Translations under genes and position numbers: made by a program | Shown here: piece by piece, positions 5,877 to 31,759 of the stretch | Layout of the letters: every line of letters begins with the position of its first letter | Position numbering within the stretch: the first letter of the stretch is position 1 | Assembly: GCA_031268995.1 (NCBI GenBank) | Contig: JAIRWK010000131.1 | Span: 1-42,447 of the forward strand | Source: Planctomycetaceae bacterium | Lineage (GTDB): Bacteria; Planctomycetota; Planctomycetia; Pirellulales; Thermoguttaceae | Length of the DNA stretch: 42,447 bases | Direction: 5' to 3' | Notes under the pieces: generated by a model | Seen by the model: only the letters and a program-made list of their open reading frames with translations | Told to the model about the DNA's origin: nothing | The model's database searches: none

Positions 5877-5905
5877 TAAATGTACGCATCCATAGAATAT
5901 AGAAT

Positions 5906-6050
5906 TATACCGGCTTCGGTATAGCAATTGTTTTTTAACGCGAAATACACGAAATTTCCGCGAAAGAACACGAAACTATTTTTCGCGAACTTTCGTGATC
6001 TTTCGCGTGTTTCGCGTTTAAAATCTGTTCTGTGAACGGTTACAAAAAAT
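5906..6050. repeat. Family-5 (cgcgaaa) palindrome with solo family-1 end
   Basis: tataccggcttcggtatagcaattgttttttaacgcgaaatacacgaaatttccgcg...gcgtttaaaatctgttctgtgaacggttacaaaaaat. Confidence 0.9.
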
Positions 6051-6071
6051 TTAATCTACTAGAATTTTATA

Positions 6072-7557: not shown

Positions 7558-10500
7558 CTAGAAATCGAATTGGAAGCCGATTTGGAAAGTTCCGGTGATT
7601 GGTGTGTTTTTTCGGTCGGGGTAGAGGTTGCCGGTGTAGCTTGCGAAGATTGATCTTGTTTTCAATTCATTCATGAAATATTGTCCGCCGATGTCCATTA
7701 TGAGGCTTGATCTTCCGAGTTTAGTTCCTCTTAACGCCAATCGTTGTCCAAAGTTATTTGTTACGGTTGTTGAGAGTTTATCTGTGCCGTAGTTGAATGA
7801 GTAGTGGAAGCCGCCGCTCAACACCAGATTGCGAACCTCATAACGCCAATCACCGCCGAATCGTAACAATGTCTGTTTTAATGTTGCGAGGTCATACATT
7901 ACTGATGTATTGGTGTTGAAATTATCGTCTTCTGTTGTTCTGTTGATCATGTTGTAGTAGAGTTCGACGGCGAACAGTGGTCGGATTGTTAGTTGTCTGC
8001 CCCAAGCGTAAGTTCGTCCGACTTCAAGTATGCCTTCAACCGTATCGCCGTTGTAATTTGCTTTATTGTAACCTGCGGTGTTTTTGGCGTAGCGTGTCAA
8101 GTCGTAATCTTGGTGTCCGTAGTTGAGCATTGCCCGCAAGTCAACTCCTAATGCCAATCTTTTTGTGCCGTAAATACCGATGTAGGTATCATCGCCGTTG
8201 ACGGTATCGCGGTTCATTGTTGACGATTGACCTTCGTATCCGAACAGTAAACCGTATTGTGTTGTTTGGGTCGGGATCACGTTATACGCAACTTGGATAC
8301 CGTCTGCGCGTAATTTGAATTTCTGATTATCGAATGAGCTTTTATGTTCGCCGGTACGTCCGACATAATTGAACCACAAGGATTTATTGGCGTTGGCAAA
8401 ATACGGTGTTTGACCTAAAAAGTTATTTGCGGATTTTATGGAGTTGGGCAATGGTTGGTTTAATCGTTTTGAGATAGCGTTCCAAGCGGAGCGGTGATCG
8501 TGCAACAATAACGAACTCAAATACGATTCGCTCATGTATGCTTGCGAATTGGGTTCGGCGAAAATTGAATTTGCGCCGAGTCGCCACGTGATGAATTGAT
8601 CTGGTGTTTCGGTAAAGGCAATTCTGATTTTATTTCTATCGATACCGTCGCCGAATTTTATTGCAACTGTATTTGGTCGTGCGCTGCCGTGAACTAAGAT
8701 TGTTCCGTCGATGTTACCGATTGCGTTGATTTGTGATTCGCCTACGACGTTTAGATCGAGTGTAGTATTTTGGGCGAGAGAAAGTGTGCCGCCGACGACA
8801 ATTTGATTTAGTTGGATTTGACCTTCGGCGAGGTTGAGGTCGTTGGTGGTTTGGAGTTTATTGAAGGATTGCGAGCCGGTACCTTTTTTTGTTACGTTAT
8901 ATCCGATCAGGTTTCCGCTGAAAATGTGATCTTGGTTATCGGGGAAATATGTGTTGCCGTTAATTTCCGTACCTTCATTTTGTTTTGGAATGTATTCTGT
9001 TATGATTTTTTGTTGACCGTTTATGGTTTCGATTTTTTGAACTGCGGTGTATTTTTCAATTTCGCCGATAGTTATATTTTTCCCGGTAACTTGTCCGCCT
9101 TCTCCGTCCAACCCGCTCACAATCCTAATATCACCGCTGACAATAATGTCGCCTTTGTTTACTGTCAATGTGTTGGTTATTAATTGGGCGAGGTTTTGTT
9201 TACCTTGACCTTCTTTTGTGAAGTTGACGGAGCTGACGATTGCGTTTGAGAAGTGGTTTTCGTTTGTGGTTAATACAAAACTTCCGCCGCTTAATTTGCC
9301 GTAACCGCCTTCTATTCCGGTAAAATTCGCGTATTGGCGGGCAACCAATTCTCCGCCTTTGAGCAAATCCTTCGTGCCAATCAGCCCGTCAACATCTATC
9401 AATTCATCAGACGAATTAAATCGACTGCTATCTTCAAGCTCGCCGTCGTTTCCTTCGCCGAATGTGATTACGCCGGTGTCAATCGAGTCAAATCGTTGGA
9501 TACCTTTTCCCTTTTTCGTAATGCTTCCGGCGGTCAGATTTCCGGTGAATGAGTAATCGTGTTGTTTGTAATTATAGGAACGAATTTTAGTGCCGGACGA
9601 GATTTTAATGATTTCGTCAACAGGAACATCGATTGTCAAGTTACCGCCGACATAAAGATTTTTGCCCGCGTTCAAATCACTCTGGACTCCGGCAATCTTC
9701 GCCGAACCCGTAACCGCAATTTCGCCGTCTCTGATTTCCAACAAGTTGGACGTTATGAGTTCGCCGACGGTTTGTTTGCCGCCGCCCCATTTGACAATGT
9801 GATCCATTTGTAGCAAACCGCCGTAAACAAAATCTTCATCGTCGTCAACATCTATTTCAATTCTCGAACCCAATAATCCGGTTACTTTACCTGTAGTTAT
9901 TGGATTACCGTTTGTGTCGAGACTGCTTTTGAGACCGCCGATCCACGCGGAATCAATAATTTCCAACGTGCCGGTATTAACCGTGAGAGTGTTTGTATAA
10001 AGTTCGCCGATTTGTTGATAGCCGATAGAAACATGTGAACCAAGCGTATTTGGTAAAAGATGATTTTTATTTACCGTTACGTTTTCCGCGTAGAGTTGTC
10101 CGTTAAATGAGTAATTGTCCACGCCGATAAATTCAGCATTGCCCTCAACCAGAACTGTACCTTCGCCGCTGATTCCGCGAAAAACTTGATCGCCGTGAAA
10201 TGTTCCCACTCCGCCTGAACCTACGCTCAAATGTAAACCTTCAGTAAGCAATTCAATATCGCTGTCTTTGCTTAGTTTCCATTTCGAATCACTTGCGTCG
10301 AATACAAAATCACCGCCTTGAGACAATAAAAGTCCGGGCGTGTTAAATTTCAATGTAACGAGCTTTATGCTTTCATAATTACTATCGAGTCCGTTTTGAA
10401 ATTCGCCGACAAATCTGTTCGCCTCATATTCAATATCTTCTTTCGATATTAAAAACTCCCTATTCTTAAATTCCGAATCACCGAAATCGGCGACTGCGTT

Positions 10501-12501
10501 GTTTTCGATGATTATCTCTTTGGTCAAGGGTTCAAAATAGCCGCCATCGCCCAATGTCAAACCCCTACTAATAGTAACCTTCTCAATAGGCGGCGCGTCA
10601 ATTGATATTGTGATCAGTTTATCGTTTTTGTTTGACGTGTAGCTGGTCATTGTTCCGTTTACCGTAACAATTTTTTCAAAAAAAGAACCGTCCGCAAGAA
10701 TGCTATTACTGCCCAACGTGATTTCTTGTGCGCCAAATACGGTGAAAGGTTTGACGTTATTGGTGAAAGTAGCGTTGCCTAAGATTGAGAAGCTGTTATT
10801 GGCACCGCCAAGATATACGCTCGCGCCGAATTTATCGGGATTGTTTGTTTGACCGACTACTTGAATTCCGTCGTTGCCGAAAATTGTGATTGAGTTATTG
10901 CCGGAATATGAAAAGATACCGTAGGCGTTACCGTTTTGTGAGGTTGCGGTGAAACTTGATTCGATGGTAAAATTCCCAAGCGAAACATCTCTATGCGTTT
11001 CATTGCCAACTCGCAAACCATACGCATCACCGCTATCAGATTGGGCAACAACATTGCCATTAACACTGAACCCCGAACCAATATTTATCCCGCTCCTATC
11101 AATCCCAATTCCAATCGCGTTACCCGTAGAACCCGTACCAGCTGTAACATCGATGCCGCCGCTAATCGTGAGAGTATTTTCGTAGGGATAGTATGACGAC
11201 GACGATTCTATTTCAACCGGACCGCCTCTCATTGTTAATCCGGTAACATCACCGCTGCCGCCGTTTGATGTTGCTGTAATACTGTTGATAACAACCTCAC
11301 CTTGATAATACGAATACCCATAAGTGCTGTGAGCATCTTTAATATCTCCGTCAAGAATAAATCCGTAAACATTGCTATCGGTATTTGGGGCGGTAGCTGT
11401 AACGTGACCGACGGTAACGCTGCTGGCATGAACATTGCCAACCCGCATTCCTACCACTTCCCCAGTACCTGAAATAGTTCTAGCAATAACATCCCCGACG
11501 GTAACAGTCGATCCATTTGATGTAGAATATATACTATCTGAAGGGGTGCCAATATTATTTATCCATACACCCGTTGCAGAATTACCTGCAATAGAAGTTA
11601 CATCGTCAATATCAACCTCTGCATAGTTTCCAATATCATTTATCCGTATTCCCGTTGCAGAATTACCGGCAGCAGAAGTTACATTGCCAATATCAACATC
11701 CGCATATCTACCAATATCATGTATCTGCGCGCCTATTGCAGACTCACCGGCAAGGGAAGATATCTGTCCAATGGCAATACTTTTGTAGGTACCAATATCG
11801 TTTATTTCGATACCGGTTGCAGTGCCGAGAGCCGAAATTGCTTCTATGCGGCTTGCACTAATGCCGTTGTAATAGTAGTCTTCGGTCATGTTTTGCACAG
11901 ATATCCCCGTCGCGTAGCCATTGCCGGTTGCTTCGACTTTAATTTCGCCCGTATAAATACTGCCGGCTAAATTACCGCCGCCCAAGAAACCTACACCAAC
12001 CGCATCACCGGCACTCGTAACTTCAAAAGAAAAGGAATAGTAAGAGGAGGAATATCCAATTTGCTCACGATAATCACCCGTTGAATAATAAATCAACCCG
12101 CCTGCAAATCCGACATGCTCATTTTCTACTGTTATTTTTTCAGATAGATAAGTTTGCGGTGTTATTATCACATTGCTGTTATTTGTTAGTAATCCAATAA
12201 CATATTCTTGGCTATCAGTTATATCAATGGTAGGCAATTCCAGATAATTAGAATTGTTGGCAGGGGTAGCAGGGGTAAACGATGGAAGATAAGGGGGGGT
12301 AAACAAGCTGCTGTCATAACGAAGAGTTGCATTATTTAGTTCAACAGCTACGACGGCGGTTGGAACGTTGTATGGCGGTATTGTTGGCGTTACGCTTGTT
12401 TGTGCGGAAGTTACATTTGAAAATATGGCAAGGCAGAGCGTGAGCAGGCAGAAAAAGATTCCGGATTGCCCAAAGCTACTTTTGATAAATTTTCGTTGCA
12501 T
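7558..12501 (-). CDS. Autotransporter outer-membrane beta-barrel domain protein with repetitive passenger
   Basis: Signal peptide from MQRKFIKSS; long beta-helix-like passenger; C-terminal barrel (SLWFNYVGRTGEHKSSFDNQ..) ending GTFQIGFQFDF, a terminal Phe consistent with a BAM beta-signal. ORF extends to 12519. Confidence 0.87.
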   Translation of the reverse strand: MQRKFIKSSFGQSGIFFCLLTLCLAIFSNVTSAQTSVTPTIPPYNVPTAVVAVELNNATLRYDSSLFTPPYLPSFTPATPANNSNYLELPTIDITDSQEYVIGLLTNNSNVIITPQTYLSEKITVENEHVGFAGGLIYYSTGDYREQIGYSSSYYSFSFEVTSAGDAVGVGFLGGGNLAGSIYTGEIKVEATGNGYATGISVQNMTEDYYYNGISASRIEAISALGTATGIEINDIGTYKSIAIGQISSLAGESAIGAQIHDIGRYADVDIGNVTSAAGNSATGIRINDIGNYAEVDIDDVTSIAGNSATGVWINNIGTPSDSIYSTSNGSTVTVGDVIARTISGTGEVVGMRVGNVHASSVTVGHVTATAPNTDSNVYGFILDGDIKDAHSTYGYSYYQGEVVINSITATSNGGSGDVTGLTMRGGPVEIESSSSYYPYENTLTISGGIDVTAGTGSTGNAIGIGIDRSGINIGSGFSVNGNVVAQSDSGDAYGLRVGNETHRDVSLGNFTIESSFTATSQNGNAYGIFSYSGNNSITIFGNDGIQVVGQTNNPDKFGASVYLGGANNSFSILGNATFTNNVKPFTVFGAQEITLGSNSILADGSFFEKIVTVNGTMTSYTSNKNDKLITISIDAPPIEKVTISRGLTLGDGGYFEPLTKEIIIENNAVADFGDSEFKNREFLISKEDIEYEANRFVGEFQNGLDSNYESIKLVTLKFNTPGLLLSQGGDFVFDASDSKWKLSKDSDIELLTEGLHLSVGSGGVGTFHGDQVFRGISGEGTVLVEGNAEFIGVDNYSFNGQLYAENVTVNKNHLLPNTLGSHVSIGYQQIGELYTNTLTVNTGTLEIIDSAWIGGLKSSLDTNGNPITTGKVTGLLGSRIEIDVDDDEDFVYGGLLQMDHIVKWGGGKQTVGELITSNLLEIRDGEIAVTGSAKIAGVQSDLNAGKNLYVGGNLTIDVPVDEIIKISSGTKIRSYNYKQHDYSFTGNLTAGSITKKGKGIQRFDSIDTGVITFGEGNDGELEDSSRFNSSDELIDVDGLIGTKDLLKGGELVARQYANFTGIEGGYGKLSGGSFVLTTNENHFSNAIVSSVNFTKEGQGKQNLAQLITNTLTVNKGDIIVSGDIRIVSGLDGEGGQVTGKNITIGEIEKYTAVQKIETINGQQKIITEYIPKQNEGTEINGNTYFPDNQDHIFSGNLIGYNVTKKGTGSQSFNKLQTTNDLNLAEGQIQLNQIVVGGTLSLAQNTTLDLNVVGESQINAIGNIDGTILVHGSARPNTVAIKFGDGIDRNKIRIAFTETPDQFITWRLGANSIFAEPNSQAYMSESYLSSLLLHDHRSAWNAISKRLNQPLPNSIKSANNFLGQTPYFANANKSLWFNYVGRTGEHKSSFDNQKFKLRADGIQVAYNVIPTQTTQYGLLFGYEGQSSTMNRDTVNGDDTYIGIYGTKRLALGVDLRAMLNYGHQDYDLTRYAKNTAGYNKANYNGDTVEGILEVGRTYAWGRQLTIRPLFAVELYYNMINRTTEDDNFNTNTSVMYDLATLKQTLLRFGGDWRYEVRNLVLSGGFHYSFNYGTDKLSTTVTNNFGQRLALRGTKLGRSSLIMDIGGQYFMNELKTRSIFASYTGNLYPDRKNTPITGTFQIGFQFDF
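11520..11850 (-). repeat. Tandem 27-aa (81 bp) repeats in the autotransporter passenger
   Basis: SSLAGESAIGAQIHDIGRYADVDIGNV / TSAAGNSATGIRINDIGNYAEVDIDDV / TSIAGNSATGVWINNIG.. consecutive units in the 7558..12519 ORF. Confidence 0.8.
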
Positions 12502-12531
12502 CCCTGCTTCCATTGTCAAAATCTATTTGTT

Positions 12532-12657: not shown

Positions 12658-12758
12658 TAATCATCTTGCGATGCCGTATTTGTGTGTCCGGCTCCATAAA
12701 ATTAAAAGCGGCTTGAGTATAATTGCTGGCAATGAGCAACTCATTACCGAAAATTAAA

Positions 12759-12863
12759 GTCTCGTAAGGGGAGACGAAGGTCTCGTAAGGGGAGACGAGG
12801 GTCTCGTAAGGGGAGACGAGGGACTCGTAAGGTGAGACGAAAGTCTCGTAAGGGGAGACGAAA
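12759..12863. repeat. 21-bp tandem repeat array, 5 units
   Basis: Five consecutive units of gtctcgtaaggggagacgaRR, each with an internal GTCTC..GAGAC inverted repeat (the fourth begins GACTC). Confidence 0.95.
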
Positions 12864-13193
12864 GCTCCGTTCTCAGGAACGGAAGCTCATTTTCGTTTTT
12901 TGGACAAAGGGATAAAAAGAACGATGTTATGAGGTTTATGAACTGTGATGAGCAATTGTTTTCTCCGTCCCTAACGGGACGAGGAATCACGTGTTACTGA
13001 ATCACTTACAATCACGTTCAATTAGGGGACTTTGTAGTAGTGATGGACAATGAACGGCAAATGTGAGTCACGAATTGCGAGAGACGAGTAATTTCGTGTC
13101 CCTTTTGTCCTCATTTTCTCTCACGTCCCTTATGTCCCTTTCACCCGAATCCTCAGGTGAAAATAATTTAAAAAAGAAAGGAAAATATCCAAA

Positions 13194-14574: not shown

Positions 14575-14615
14575 AAAATTTTTTCAAGTGAAATTTGATG
14601 GCAAGGTAAAGTTGT

Positions 14616-14770
14616 TGTTATACTCATCGCACTATGAAATTCAGTTTTTATTTTTTTGACAGGATTGCGGGATAGCAGGATAGACAGGATTTTTTTATAT
14701 CCTGACAATCCTGTAATCATGTTATCCTGTCTTAAAAAGATAAATTTCACAGCAGCTGCGGTATATTTTG
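14616..14770. repeat. Family-3 palindrome (gacaggat.. / ..atcctgtc core)
   Basis: tatactcatcgcactatgaaattcagtttttatttttttgacaggattgcgggatag...tatcctgtcttaaaaagataaatttca. Confidence 0.85.
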
Positions 14771-16569: not shown

Positions 16570-16715
16570 CAGCTCAAGAATATATACCGCCCATACCGGC
16601 TTCGGTATACCTTAAATTTCCTGAAGCTGAACACGCAAGCGCAACAATGTGAAGCGGTTGTTCAGGGGCGAAGCCCACCGCCCATGCCGGATTCGGTATA
16701 CCGGCTTCGGTGTAC
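16570..16715 (+). repeat. Family-1 repeat with duplicated terminal hairpin
   Basis: ataccggcttcggtatac..cttaaatttcctgaagctgaacacgcaagcgcaacaatgtgaag..ccggcttcggtgtac. Confidence 0.85.
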
Positions 16716-17132: not shown

Positions 17133-17150
17133 TATACCGAAGCCGGTATA
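17133..17150. repeat. Solo family-1 terminal hairpin TATACCGAAGCCGGTATA
   Basis: 18-mer with perfect 7-bp stem and AAGC loop; exact reverse complement of 5906-5923. Confidence 0.85.
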
Positions 17151-17299
17151 AGTGGGTTGTTGTATTTTGGAAAAGTTGGTTTTATACTCGTTGCGCAATG
17201 AAATTTGATTTTTATTTTTTTGACAGGATTTTATTGTACCGAATCTGTTATGTGAACGATTACAAAAAATAAGTGTAAACTGTTACCATTTTTTTAATT

Positions 17300-18255: not shown

Positions 18256-19191
18256 ATGGAATCTTACAGACCTAAATATACGGTTGATTTACACTCGCAC
18301 ACAAATCGTTCGGACGGCAATGACGAGCCGGCGGAATTTTTGCGGAATGCGTCGGAGATTGGGATGTTGGTTGTTGCGATAACGGATCATGATGTGTTTC
18401 CGCCGGCAACCGTTTCTGTTGACAACAAAACAATTCCGACACAGGAATATGCCAAGTCGTTGGGCTTATCGGTGTTGTTGGGCATGGAGGTATCGTGTGA
18501 GACCAATGTTGATGATGTTCATATTGTTTGTTTTGGTTGTGATTGGGGCAAGTCGCCGCTTTCGCGTCTTCCTGCAATAGTAGAGGAATCAAAAATTGAA
18601 TCGTATCGTCAAGTTGTTGAGCGGTTGCGGTTGAATGGTATGAATATTTTGTGGTCGGAGTTGACGTGTGATGTTGGGCGTGTTGATGGCGGGGTTCAGA
18701 AGAAGCATATATTTGAGTTGTTGGCGGCTAAGGGTTATGCGGAGAGTTGGCAAGCGGCGAAAATTATGGTGCGGGACAATCCCGATTATGATATTAAACG
18801 ACAAAAACCAGACGCAATCGCAACAATTCAATCAATACACGACGCAGGCGGTATTGCAATTTTAGCGCATCCGTATTTGATTGACGAAGAGGTTACGAGT
18901 GAGGGCAAATTGGTTTCGCGTGATGTATTTATTAGGCGTTTAATTGATGCGGGGCTTGATGGTATTGAGGCAACTTACACTTATGATAAAACAAGCTACA
19001 AAGGCAAACAAAGTCCGGCGGAGATTGCGAATGAAGTTATTGAGCGTTATAGAGGGTTAGTTGCTATAATTTCGGGCGGTTCGGACTATCACGGCGACCA
19101 CAAAAAAGGAACAAAAAATCCGCGACGTATTGGAGATGCCGGAATTGAGGTAGAATATTTCCAAAATAATAAAATTTTGCGTGAACTATAA
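18256..19191 (+). CDS. PHP-domain phosphoesterase (YciV/Rnm-like)
   Basis: YTVDLHSHTNRSDGNDEPAEFLRNASEIGMLVVAITDHDVF..; AILAHPYLI; SGGSDYHGDHK. Confidence 0.85.
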   Translation: MESYRPKYTVDLHSHTNRSDGNDEPAEFLRNASEIGMLVVAITDHDVFPPATVSVDNKTIPTQEYAKSLGLSVLLGMEVSCETNVDDVHIVCFGCDWGKSPLSRLPAIVEESKIESYRQVVERLRLNGMNILWSELTCDVGRVDGGVQKKHIFELLAAKGYAESWQAAKIMVRDNPDYDIKRQKPDAIATIQSIHDAGGIAILAHPYLIDEEVTSEGKLVSRDVFIRRLIDAGLDGIEATYTYDKTSYKGKQSPAEIANEVIERYRGLVAIISGGSDYHGDHKKGTKNPRRIGDAGIEVEYFQNNKILREL

Positions 19192-19198
19192 AAAAATA

Positions 19199-19480
19199 GT
19201 AACCGTTCACACTTATTTTTTGTAATCGTTCACTGAACAGATTTTAAACGCGAAACACGCGAAAGATCACGAAAGTTCGCGAAAAATAGTTTCGTGTTGT
19301 TTCGCGGAAATTTCGTGCATTTTGCGTTAAAAAACAATTGCTATACCGAAGCCGGTATGGGCGGTAGGCTTCGCCCCTGAACAACCGCTTCACGTTGTTG
19401 CGCTTGCGTGTTCAGCTTCGGGAATTTCAAAACAGCTTTAGTATATCACCGCACAAACGCAAAACCGTGTGAACGGTTAC
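19199..19480. repeat. Composite element: family-5 core plus family-1 copy inside 12-bp perfect terminal inverted repeats
   Basis: GTAACCGTTCAC (19199-19210) ... GTGAACGGTTAC (19469-19480); contains the cgcgaaa palindrome and a short-form family-1 copy at 19342-19445. Confidence 0.88.
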
Positions 19481-19705
19481 GAAAAATATATCGTTAATAA
19501 CTCATGTTACGCATGAGCGATTAACAATCGAAGAAACAGTTTTTTTGCCCTGAAAGGGCGCGAGCATCAGCGTAGGGCAACGCCCTACGGAACATGCAGT
19601 TGGTTTTTAGAATTTCACCAATAATATTTTTGTGCAAATTCCTGTCCCTTTTGTCCCTCATGTCCCTTATGTCCCTCCAATAAAAATTTTAACAAAATTA
19701 ACAAA

Positions 19706-24762: not shown

Positions 24763-25009
24763 GGTTTTTTGTGCTGAGTTTGAGGAATCGCTATTGCAAT
24801 ATCCGAACTCAAAAAAATTATTTTCGATTTTAAGTTTACGCTAAACCCGATGTTAGCAAAATATTTCGCCCCCGAACAACAGCTTCAGCATAACAACATT
24901 GTGCACACTTCGCGGATGATCAATCGGATTTTAAAACAACTCCAGTATTGTACACCCAAATAGTTGTTTAGCAAGGTGCGGGTAAAATCATACCATAGCC
25001 ATTAGGACG

Positions 25010-25135
25010 ATATACTCATCGCACTATGAAATTCAGTTTTTATTTTTTTTGACAGGATTTGCAGGATGGCAAGATAAACAGGATTTCATTATATCCTGGC
25101 AATCCTAATATCCTGGCAATCCTACTATCCTGTTG
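25010..25135. repeat. Family-3 element abutting a family-1 copy
   Basis: tatactcatcgcactatgaaattcagttttta..gacaggatttgcagg...atcctgttg. Confidence 0.8.
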
Positions 25136-29850: not shown

Positions 29851-29900
29851 TATACCGTAGGCGGTAGTGAGATAGGCTTCGCAATACCGGTTGCGGTATA
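29851..29900 (-). repeat. Truncated family-1 repeat immediately upstream of xseA
   Basis: tataccgtaggcggtagtgagataggcttcgcaataccggttgcggtata. Confidence 0.75.
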
Positions 29901-31505: not shown

Positions 31506-31555
31506 GATTATAACCCAGTCCCTTTTATCCCTTTATCCAAAAAACAAGAACGAGG

Positions 31556-31695
31556 CTTTCGCCGCCCCTTACGAGACTTTCGCCGCCCCTTACGAGACCT
31601 TCGTCTCCCCTTACGAGACTTTCGTCTCCCCTTACGAGACCTTCGTCTCCCCTTACGAGACCTTCGTCTCCCCTTACAAGACCTTCATCTCCCCG
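31556..31695. repeat. 21-bp tandem repeat array, 6 units plus a partial unit (inverse complement of the 12759 array)
   Basis: Six units of cYttcgtctccccttacgaga (the first two have gccgc for gtctc) plus a degraded unit. Confidence 0.95.
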
Positions 31696-31759
31696 TATAC
31701 AGAAGCCGGTATGGGCAATAGGCTTCGGCATACGGATTAAAAAAGCAAAGGAGCTAAAC

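Follow-up and report, generated by a model that had tools for sequence, protein, structure and literature searches.

Two near-identical segments that lie in opposite orientation in a 42,447-nucleotide stretch of DNA from a Planctomycetaceae bacterium (contig JAIRWK010000131.1; hereafter the window) are probably independent insertions of one short non-autonomous element, here called family A. The best reading, held with fairly good confidence, begins with the insertion of A, continues with the insertion of a second short element, family-1, into A, and ends at one of the two sites with a deletion bounded by the terminal hairpin of family-1. The site so reads as a record of how mobile DNA of familiar kinds, apparently a RUP-like IS630 MITE and an IS66-type MITE, inserted and then decayed.

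The inverted pair and the state of its two loci

A repeat search of the window identifies 5907-6050 and 19215-19358 as its longest inverted pair, with arms of 144 nt that are 97% complementary. These arms bear out the original prediction of near-identical inverted segments of about 145 bp, together with its observation that a full family-1 copy is present at 19342 and only the terminal 18-mer at 5906; the full copy is 104 nt long (19342-19445), and the 18-mer, TATACCGGCTTCGGTATA, occupies 5906-5923. The earlier count of about six differences conveys the near-identity correctly, but direct comparison gives five, at positions 5942, 5947, 5966, 6031 and 6039. The framing of the pair as a two-copy inverted duplication was wrong: the 127-bp body (5924-6050) has about 40 dispersed matches across the genome, which constitute family A, in a source assembly of 438 contigs, 4.19 Mb and 85.7% completeness. 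At five other loci (C323, C187, C137, C22 and C276) the bit score against 5924-6050 is at least that of 19215-19341, and the pair is therefore not a private or special duplication.

The 19.2-kb copy is a complete family A element on the plus strand (19199-19480), with the outer inverted ends GTAACCGTTCACAC (19199-19212) and GTGTGAACGGTTAC (19467-19480) and an inner, second terminus-like sequence, GTAATCGTTCACTG, at 19222-19235 on the same strand. Family-1 interrupts it on the plus strand at 19342-19445, reading TA, TACCGAAGCC...AGCTTTAGTA, TA, and lies between CTA and TCACC of A with a duplicated TA; about 14 other A copies have this site empty, as CTATCACC or with slight variation. Beyond family-1 the element continues to its own second terminus at 19480 and is flanked by 8-bp repeats, AAAAAATA at 19191-19198 and GAAAAATA at 19481-19488, which agree at 7 of 8 positions. 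The 5.9-kb copy, recognized by family-A homology, is a truncated element on the minus strand (5922-6043) that consists of the body and the inner-type terminus GTGAACGGTTAC (6032-6043). It stops at the TA equivalent to the 19342 insertion site, and the outer ~35 bp of A past the hairpin are gone. Only the solo end of family-1 is found there, a 14-bp palindrome (5908-5921) with TA on each side; 5906-5923 is an exact TATACCGAAGCCGGTATA on the minus strand and forms a stem of 7 bp and a 4-nt loop. The flanks of the two copies are unrelated to each other.

About 25 A copies keep this side of the element, and 11 of them have an IS630-type end at the same TA (CTATCACC). The TA is uninterrupted in about 14 copies, carries family-1 or its hairpin in seven and carries other IS630-type ends (TATACTGTAGC, TATACTCATAG and similar) in four, and it is a hotspot for IS630-type insertions. 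Where a full family-1 copy is present, the far side of A is restored at L001, L002 and L004 and is not restored at L003. In all three hairpin-only cases (window 5906, L006 and L009) the far side is missing and unrelated sequence follows directly after the TA. The three differ at the centre of the hairpin (A, C or T), which suggests that each arose separately. One hairpin-free A copy, L038, is also truncated just past CTAT. The approximately 14 uninterrupted copies bear no excision footprint at the hotspot.

A third family with IS630-type ends (TATACTCATCGCACTATGAAATTCAG...) occurs in the window at 14605-14666, 17169-17230 and 24997-25058, and two of its relatives, L025 and L036, occupy the same TA hotspot of A.

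The gene pair that flanks 5906-6050, a 597-aa gene and an HlyD-type gene separated by window positions 5877-6071, is also adjacent in the related genomes G015 and G012. The intergenic distance there is about 120 and 85 bp and includes neither an A-type insertion nor a hairpin, so A probably arrived after the split from these relatives. Neither is a strain-level relative, and alternative full, solo-end and empty states of this one locus are not seen. At the 5.9-kb locus 57 bp of non-element intergene are kept in the present genome, a length that would fit a loss of flank, the intergenes being too diverged for proof. For the 19.2-kb copy, the relatives have the downstream gene on different contigs, and the intergene shows no conservation.

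The hairpin boundary and its origin

On the preferred reading, family-1, which is of the IS630 type, targets TA and is far more abundant, entered A after A itself had inserted, at the hotspot TA CTATCACC. At 19.2 kb the nested pair is complete. At 5.9 kb the same TA would have been hit by family-1, and a deletion would then have removed the family-1 body, the outer ~35 bp of A and adjoining flank. This deletion would have stopped at the inner edge of the left end of family-1, leaving TA-hairpin-TA. The left end is a palindrome, and its inner edge (..CGGTA) therefore mirrors the true terminus. Repeated stopping at this edge could arise if an IS630 transposase, now decayed in the assembly, took the inner edge as an end, or if a break was repaired through short GTA/TA homology. 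The data establish membership in the two families, the two kinds of target duplication, the nesting, the recurrence of the boundary and the missing end of A; the order of events at 5.9 kb and the agent of the deletion are what we infer.

The boundary recurs throughout the genome. There are 32 exact matches to TATACCGNAGCCGGTATA and none to its reversed control; the pattern TATACCG-N(4-34)-CGGTATA occurs 93 times in the whole genome (G000), and its reversed controls are likewise absent. Among the 50 listed of these 93 micro-palindromes, lengths of 18 bp (28 cases), 36/37 bp (17) and 27 bp (two) together make up 47, and a class of ~50-bp palindromes is also present. An internal CGGTA, the mirror of family-1's own terminus, marks the stop in the 18- and 27-bp forms. 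Some 18-mers merely start full family-1 copies, so that isolated hairpins number about 25 in the sampled DNA. A sample of 347 kb, picked without regard to hairpins, contains 243 matches to the left end. Family-1 sequence fails to follow in 50 of them; 11 of the 50 stop exactly at GGTATA, and ragged ends exist as well. The original prediction had proposed a defined boundary of excision or insertion. Insertion does occur exactly at TA with a TA duplication, and breakpoints recur at the hairpin end, but clean excision is unseen. As for precise loss down to a terminal hairpin, one of its two routes, the loss at 5906 took the end of A as well and so amounts to more than a shortening of family-1 within an A element that stayed whole.

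The strongest alternative keeps the deletion and changes its agent. An ordinary microhomology-mediated or slippage deletion would join GTA(T) at the inner edge of the hairpin to GTA/TA elsewhere, without a transposase, which we regard as a serious possibility though not the favoured one. Family-1 offers a ready direct repeat, with CCGGTAT in its interior and GAGTATA at the right end, and ragged truncations and internal deletions also occur. However, the closer and equally available product, a stop at AAAGTA/TA, is found 0 times in the 347-kb sample against 40 intact AAAGTAGCTTnnGTATA ends, and loss of the outside flank would require a second homology every time.

A more specific version of the deletion reading, which we put forward tentatively and hold to be rather doubtful, is that the palindromic left end of family-1 works both ways, such that an IS630-type transposase can use the inner edge (CGGTA) as a terminus. 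At three different sites (L118, L119 and L120) one junction is shared, in which family-1 is followed by the 3' part of an IS630 gene and its right end; there a longer unit apparently took over the left end of family-1 as its own. These composite units favour the view that an inserted copy can provide ends fit for use, and their shared junction is the strongest indirect support for a bidirectional end. A text search of the literature on adjacent deletions by IS630 elements returned no direct precedent. If the left end does act in both directions, an inserted element could launch either its own transposition or the precise deletion of the DNA beyond it, 14-bp hairpin scars would be left at TA and, in other cases, composites of the L118-L120 type would gain a left end. 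A family of 1,000 copies would then be an engine of hairpin-bounded deletions.

It is unlikely that the hairpin of 18 bp (14 bp plus TA) moves on its own, as a minimal element inserting at TA independently of family-1. In favour of this stand the palindrome itself, with TACCG at either end and TA on each side, the roughly 25 isolated copies, the discrete 27-, 36/37- and ~50-bp palindromic forms, and a small number of exact 18-mers in other members of the genus. The empty sites tell against it. A hairpin-only site formed by insertion, or by internal deletion with intact flanks, should have an empty counterpart at a rate of about 15%, since paralogous single-TA empty sites are recovered for 17 of 115 full family-1 copies (15%). 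None is restored for the hairpin-only copies (0/25; p=0.04) or for all micro-palindromic forms taken together (0/55; p=0.0016), a comparison that may be weakened if the micro-forms are older and their flanks have diverged. The counts derive from targeted loci and from sampled DNA equal to roughly one tenth of the assembly, with self-matches filtered out. The target's far side is also missing in all three A cases, and for ISY100, the studied IS630-family element, the 24-bp ends are probably required (PMC2170065). On the empty-site counts a hairpin that moves by itself is accordingly judged unlikely, and the second route in the original prediction, in which a solo end grows into a full element, finds no support in the same 0/25. 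The lack of restored sites in either set, the probable 24-bp requirement of ISY100 and the clean hotspot of the uninterrupted A copies make an outward deletion from the inner edge of the hairpin the best reading. Ragged ends, the hairpin-free truncation at L038 and the unrestored far side at L003 count against it.

Other palindromic forms are present in the window. A 27-bp micro-palindrome at 16583-16609, TATACCGCCCATACCGGCTTCGGTATA, comprises the first 25 nt of family-1 up to the second internal CGGTA and sits at the end of a rearranged family-1 copy. A second hairpin-only copy, TATACCGAAGCCGGTATA, at 17133-17150 adjoins a AATCTGCGTCGTCTGCGTGCT repeat, and a 50-bp imperfect palindrome at 29851-29900, with family-1 left ends on both sides, is a member of the ~50-bp class.

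Identity of the two element families

Aligned family-1 copies start with TATACCG and end with GTATA, spanning 103-104 bp including the TA on each side. A 35-nt core has 1,004 matches with up to three mismatches in this genome; at the same threshold there are 15 in G008, one in G015 and none in the other 18 genus members. Relatives at ~85-90% identity occur in G003, G005, G008 and G015, and the exact matches in named genomes are all in Planctomycetaceae bacterium bins. The duplicated target is TA. One copy has entered the IS630 gene of L117, where the sequence reads CGTACTT-TA[TACCG..CAGTA]TA-CTAAC and the empty counterpart at L121 reads CGTACTCTACTAAC; at L052 a family-1 copy is inserted into another. 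The two ends form an imperfect inverted repeat, TATACYSAAGC, and are alike over about 11 bp. The right end, AAAACAGCTTGAGTATA, is the end that adjoins the IS630 genes of the genome, and the left end, TATACCGTAGC, matches theirs; these genes have TATACYG(T)AGCTAC at their start and AAAACAGCTTGAGTATA at their end. The partner-type gene is assigned to IS630 by NF033545 (109.8 bits; cut-off 100). All matches to IS630-family genes in this genome are fragmentary or broken, and a search for an intact transposase with these ends, of either the IS630 or the IS66 type, found none here; across the genus the IS630 transposases found have other ends. Judged by its ends and target, family-1 is a putative IS630/Tc1-mariner-type MITE, separate from and unrelated to A.

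It is very improbable that family-1 is instead a single-strand element of the REP or IS200/IS605 type. Its hairpin lies at the very end, it folds more than its shuffles do (z -2.65), and a TA duplication alone is indistinguishable from insertion 3' of TA. However, the flanks of 30 copies contain neither a preference beyond TA on either side nor the specific 4-5 nt target beside the left end that marks IS200/IS605/REP elements, the ends form an inverted repeat, if an imperfect one, and both of them match DDE-type IS630 genes of the same genome. An Rfam search of the window reports tRNA only, so no known structured RNA explains the repeats.

Family A is non-coding, ~157-181 bp long and present in about 40 copies. 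Its inverted ends start with GTAA and read GTAACCGTTCACA followed by C or G. In oriented alignments a complete copy runs from GTAACCGTTCACAC to GTGTGAACGGTTAC through a body that is built of GCGAAA/TTTCGC words and rich in hairpins. A second terminus-like sequence, GTAAYCGTTCACAG, lies ~23 bp inside one end, and this inner sequence is the actual end at L015 and L024, with its own 8-bp duplication. Flanking repeats of 8 bp (at least 7 of 8 positions) occur in 19 of 50 A rows, where 2.4 are expected from shuffled partners, and there is no comparable excess at 4-7 or 9-11 bp. Because the 50 rows include copies counted from both orientations or at overlapping loci, the excess is a strong trend and not the outcome of 50 independent trials. 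Perfect duplications are present at L007 (AAAGTTTT), L039 (AAATCCTG), L024 (AATAATCC, where the inner terminus is used) and L157:3502.

GTAA ends with 8-bp direct repeats are the pattern of IS66 (PMC11946415; PMC3281130). The genome also contains decayed IS66 transposase loci with ends of the form GTAACCGTTCACGG..; their first 12 bp are identical to those of A at L112 and L115, and almost identical at L114, before the sequences diverge (GTAACCGTTCACGGTTATTT vs GTAACCGTTCACACGG). A is thus a candidate IS66-type MITE whose identity to resident IS66 ends extends over 12 bp only. That one segment was duplicated in inverted orientation in an ancestor, with one end diverging later, is hardly credible despite the 97% identity, the orientation and a CAATTGC junction common to both copies, given the five loci that match at least equally, the unrelated flanks and the 8-bp duplication of the 19.2-kb copy's own. 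A two-copy segmental duplication is rejected as contradicted by the family-wide similarity.

The window also holds inverted tandem arrays of a 21-bp unit (GTCTCGTAAGGGGAGACGAAG) at 12738-12884 and 31529-31696, ~90% complementary and belonging to another repeat family. A 1653-aa open reading frame at 7558-12519 has an autotransporter beta-domain and in-frame 81-bp repeats (11537-11779), and a DUF1559-type protein is encoded as well.

Relation to known systems and significance

The closest parallel is RUP, the repeat unit of pneumococcus, a non-coding element of ~100 bp with terminal inverted repeats like those of a resident IS630-family element, a TA target and insertions in transposase genes, for which mobilisation by IS630-Spn1 has been proposed (PMC2229807). 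Family-1 resembles it in its length of ~100 bp, lack of coding capacity, IS630-shared ends, TA target and presence inside a transposase gene (L117). It differs in its ~1,000 copies, roughly nine times the 108-110 of RUP, in a left end that is a short palindrome with hairpin-only, 27-, 29-, 36/37- and ~50-bp palindromic forms, and in that the partner transposases found are all decayed. ISY100, an IS630/Tc1/mariner element of Synechocystis, duplicates TA as family-1 does and is modelled as moving by cut-and-paste with an HTH and DDE transposase (PMC2170065); it is autonomous with 24-bp terminal inverted repeats, whereas the ends of family-1 are alike over only ~11 bp. REP sequences with RAYT/TnpA-REP (IS200/IS605-like) are likewise short, high-copy intergenic palindromes, but the palindrome here is the terminus of a DDE/TA-type MITE. 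The GTAG or CGTC tag of the published REP super-families (PMC3733652) is not seen in family-1. Family A shares with IS66 elements and MITEs the GTAA.. inverted ends, the 8-bp repeats and the first 12 bp of the resident IS66 loci, and differs in being ~157-181 bp, non-coding and equipped with two nested alternative termini; a literature text search returned no published IS66 MITE of this kind.

The element kinds are already known, and what stands out is the copy number of family-1, the shared insertion hotspot and the recurrent hairpin boundary. At ~1,000 copies of ~104 bp, family-1 makes up ~2.5% of the 4.19-Mb assembly; for all MITEs of a bacterium a published statement gives up to 2% (PMC3281130). 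The family is nearly confined to this species among 21 genus genomes at the stringency used, and so looks like a recent burst within one planctomycete lineage. Nested insertions supply empty sites within one genome, which makes the target duplication and decay of MITEs measurable without close strains. The recurrent hairpin boundary offers a testable idea of how small intergenic palindromes may arise from larger mobile elements.
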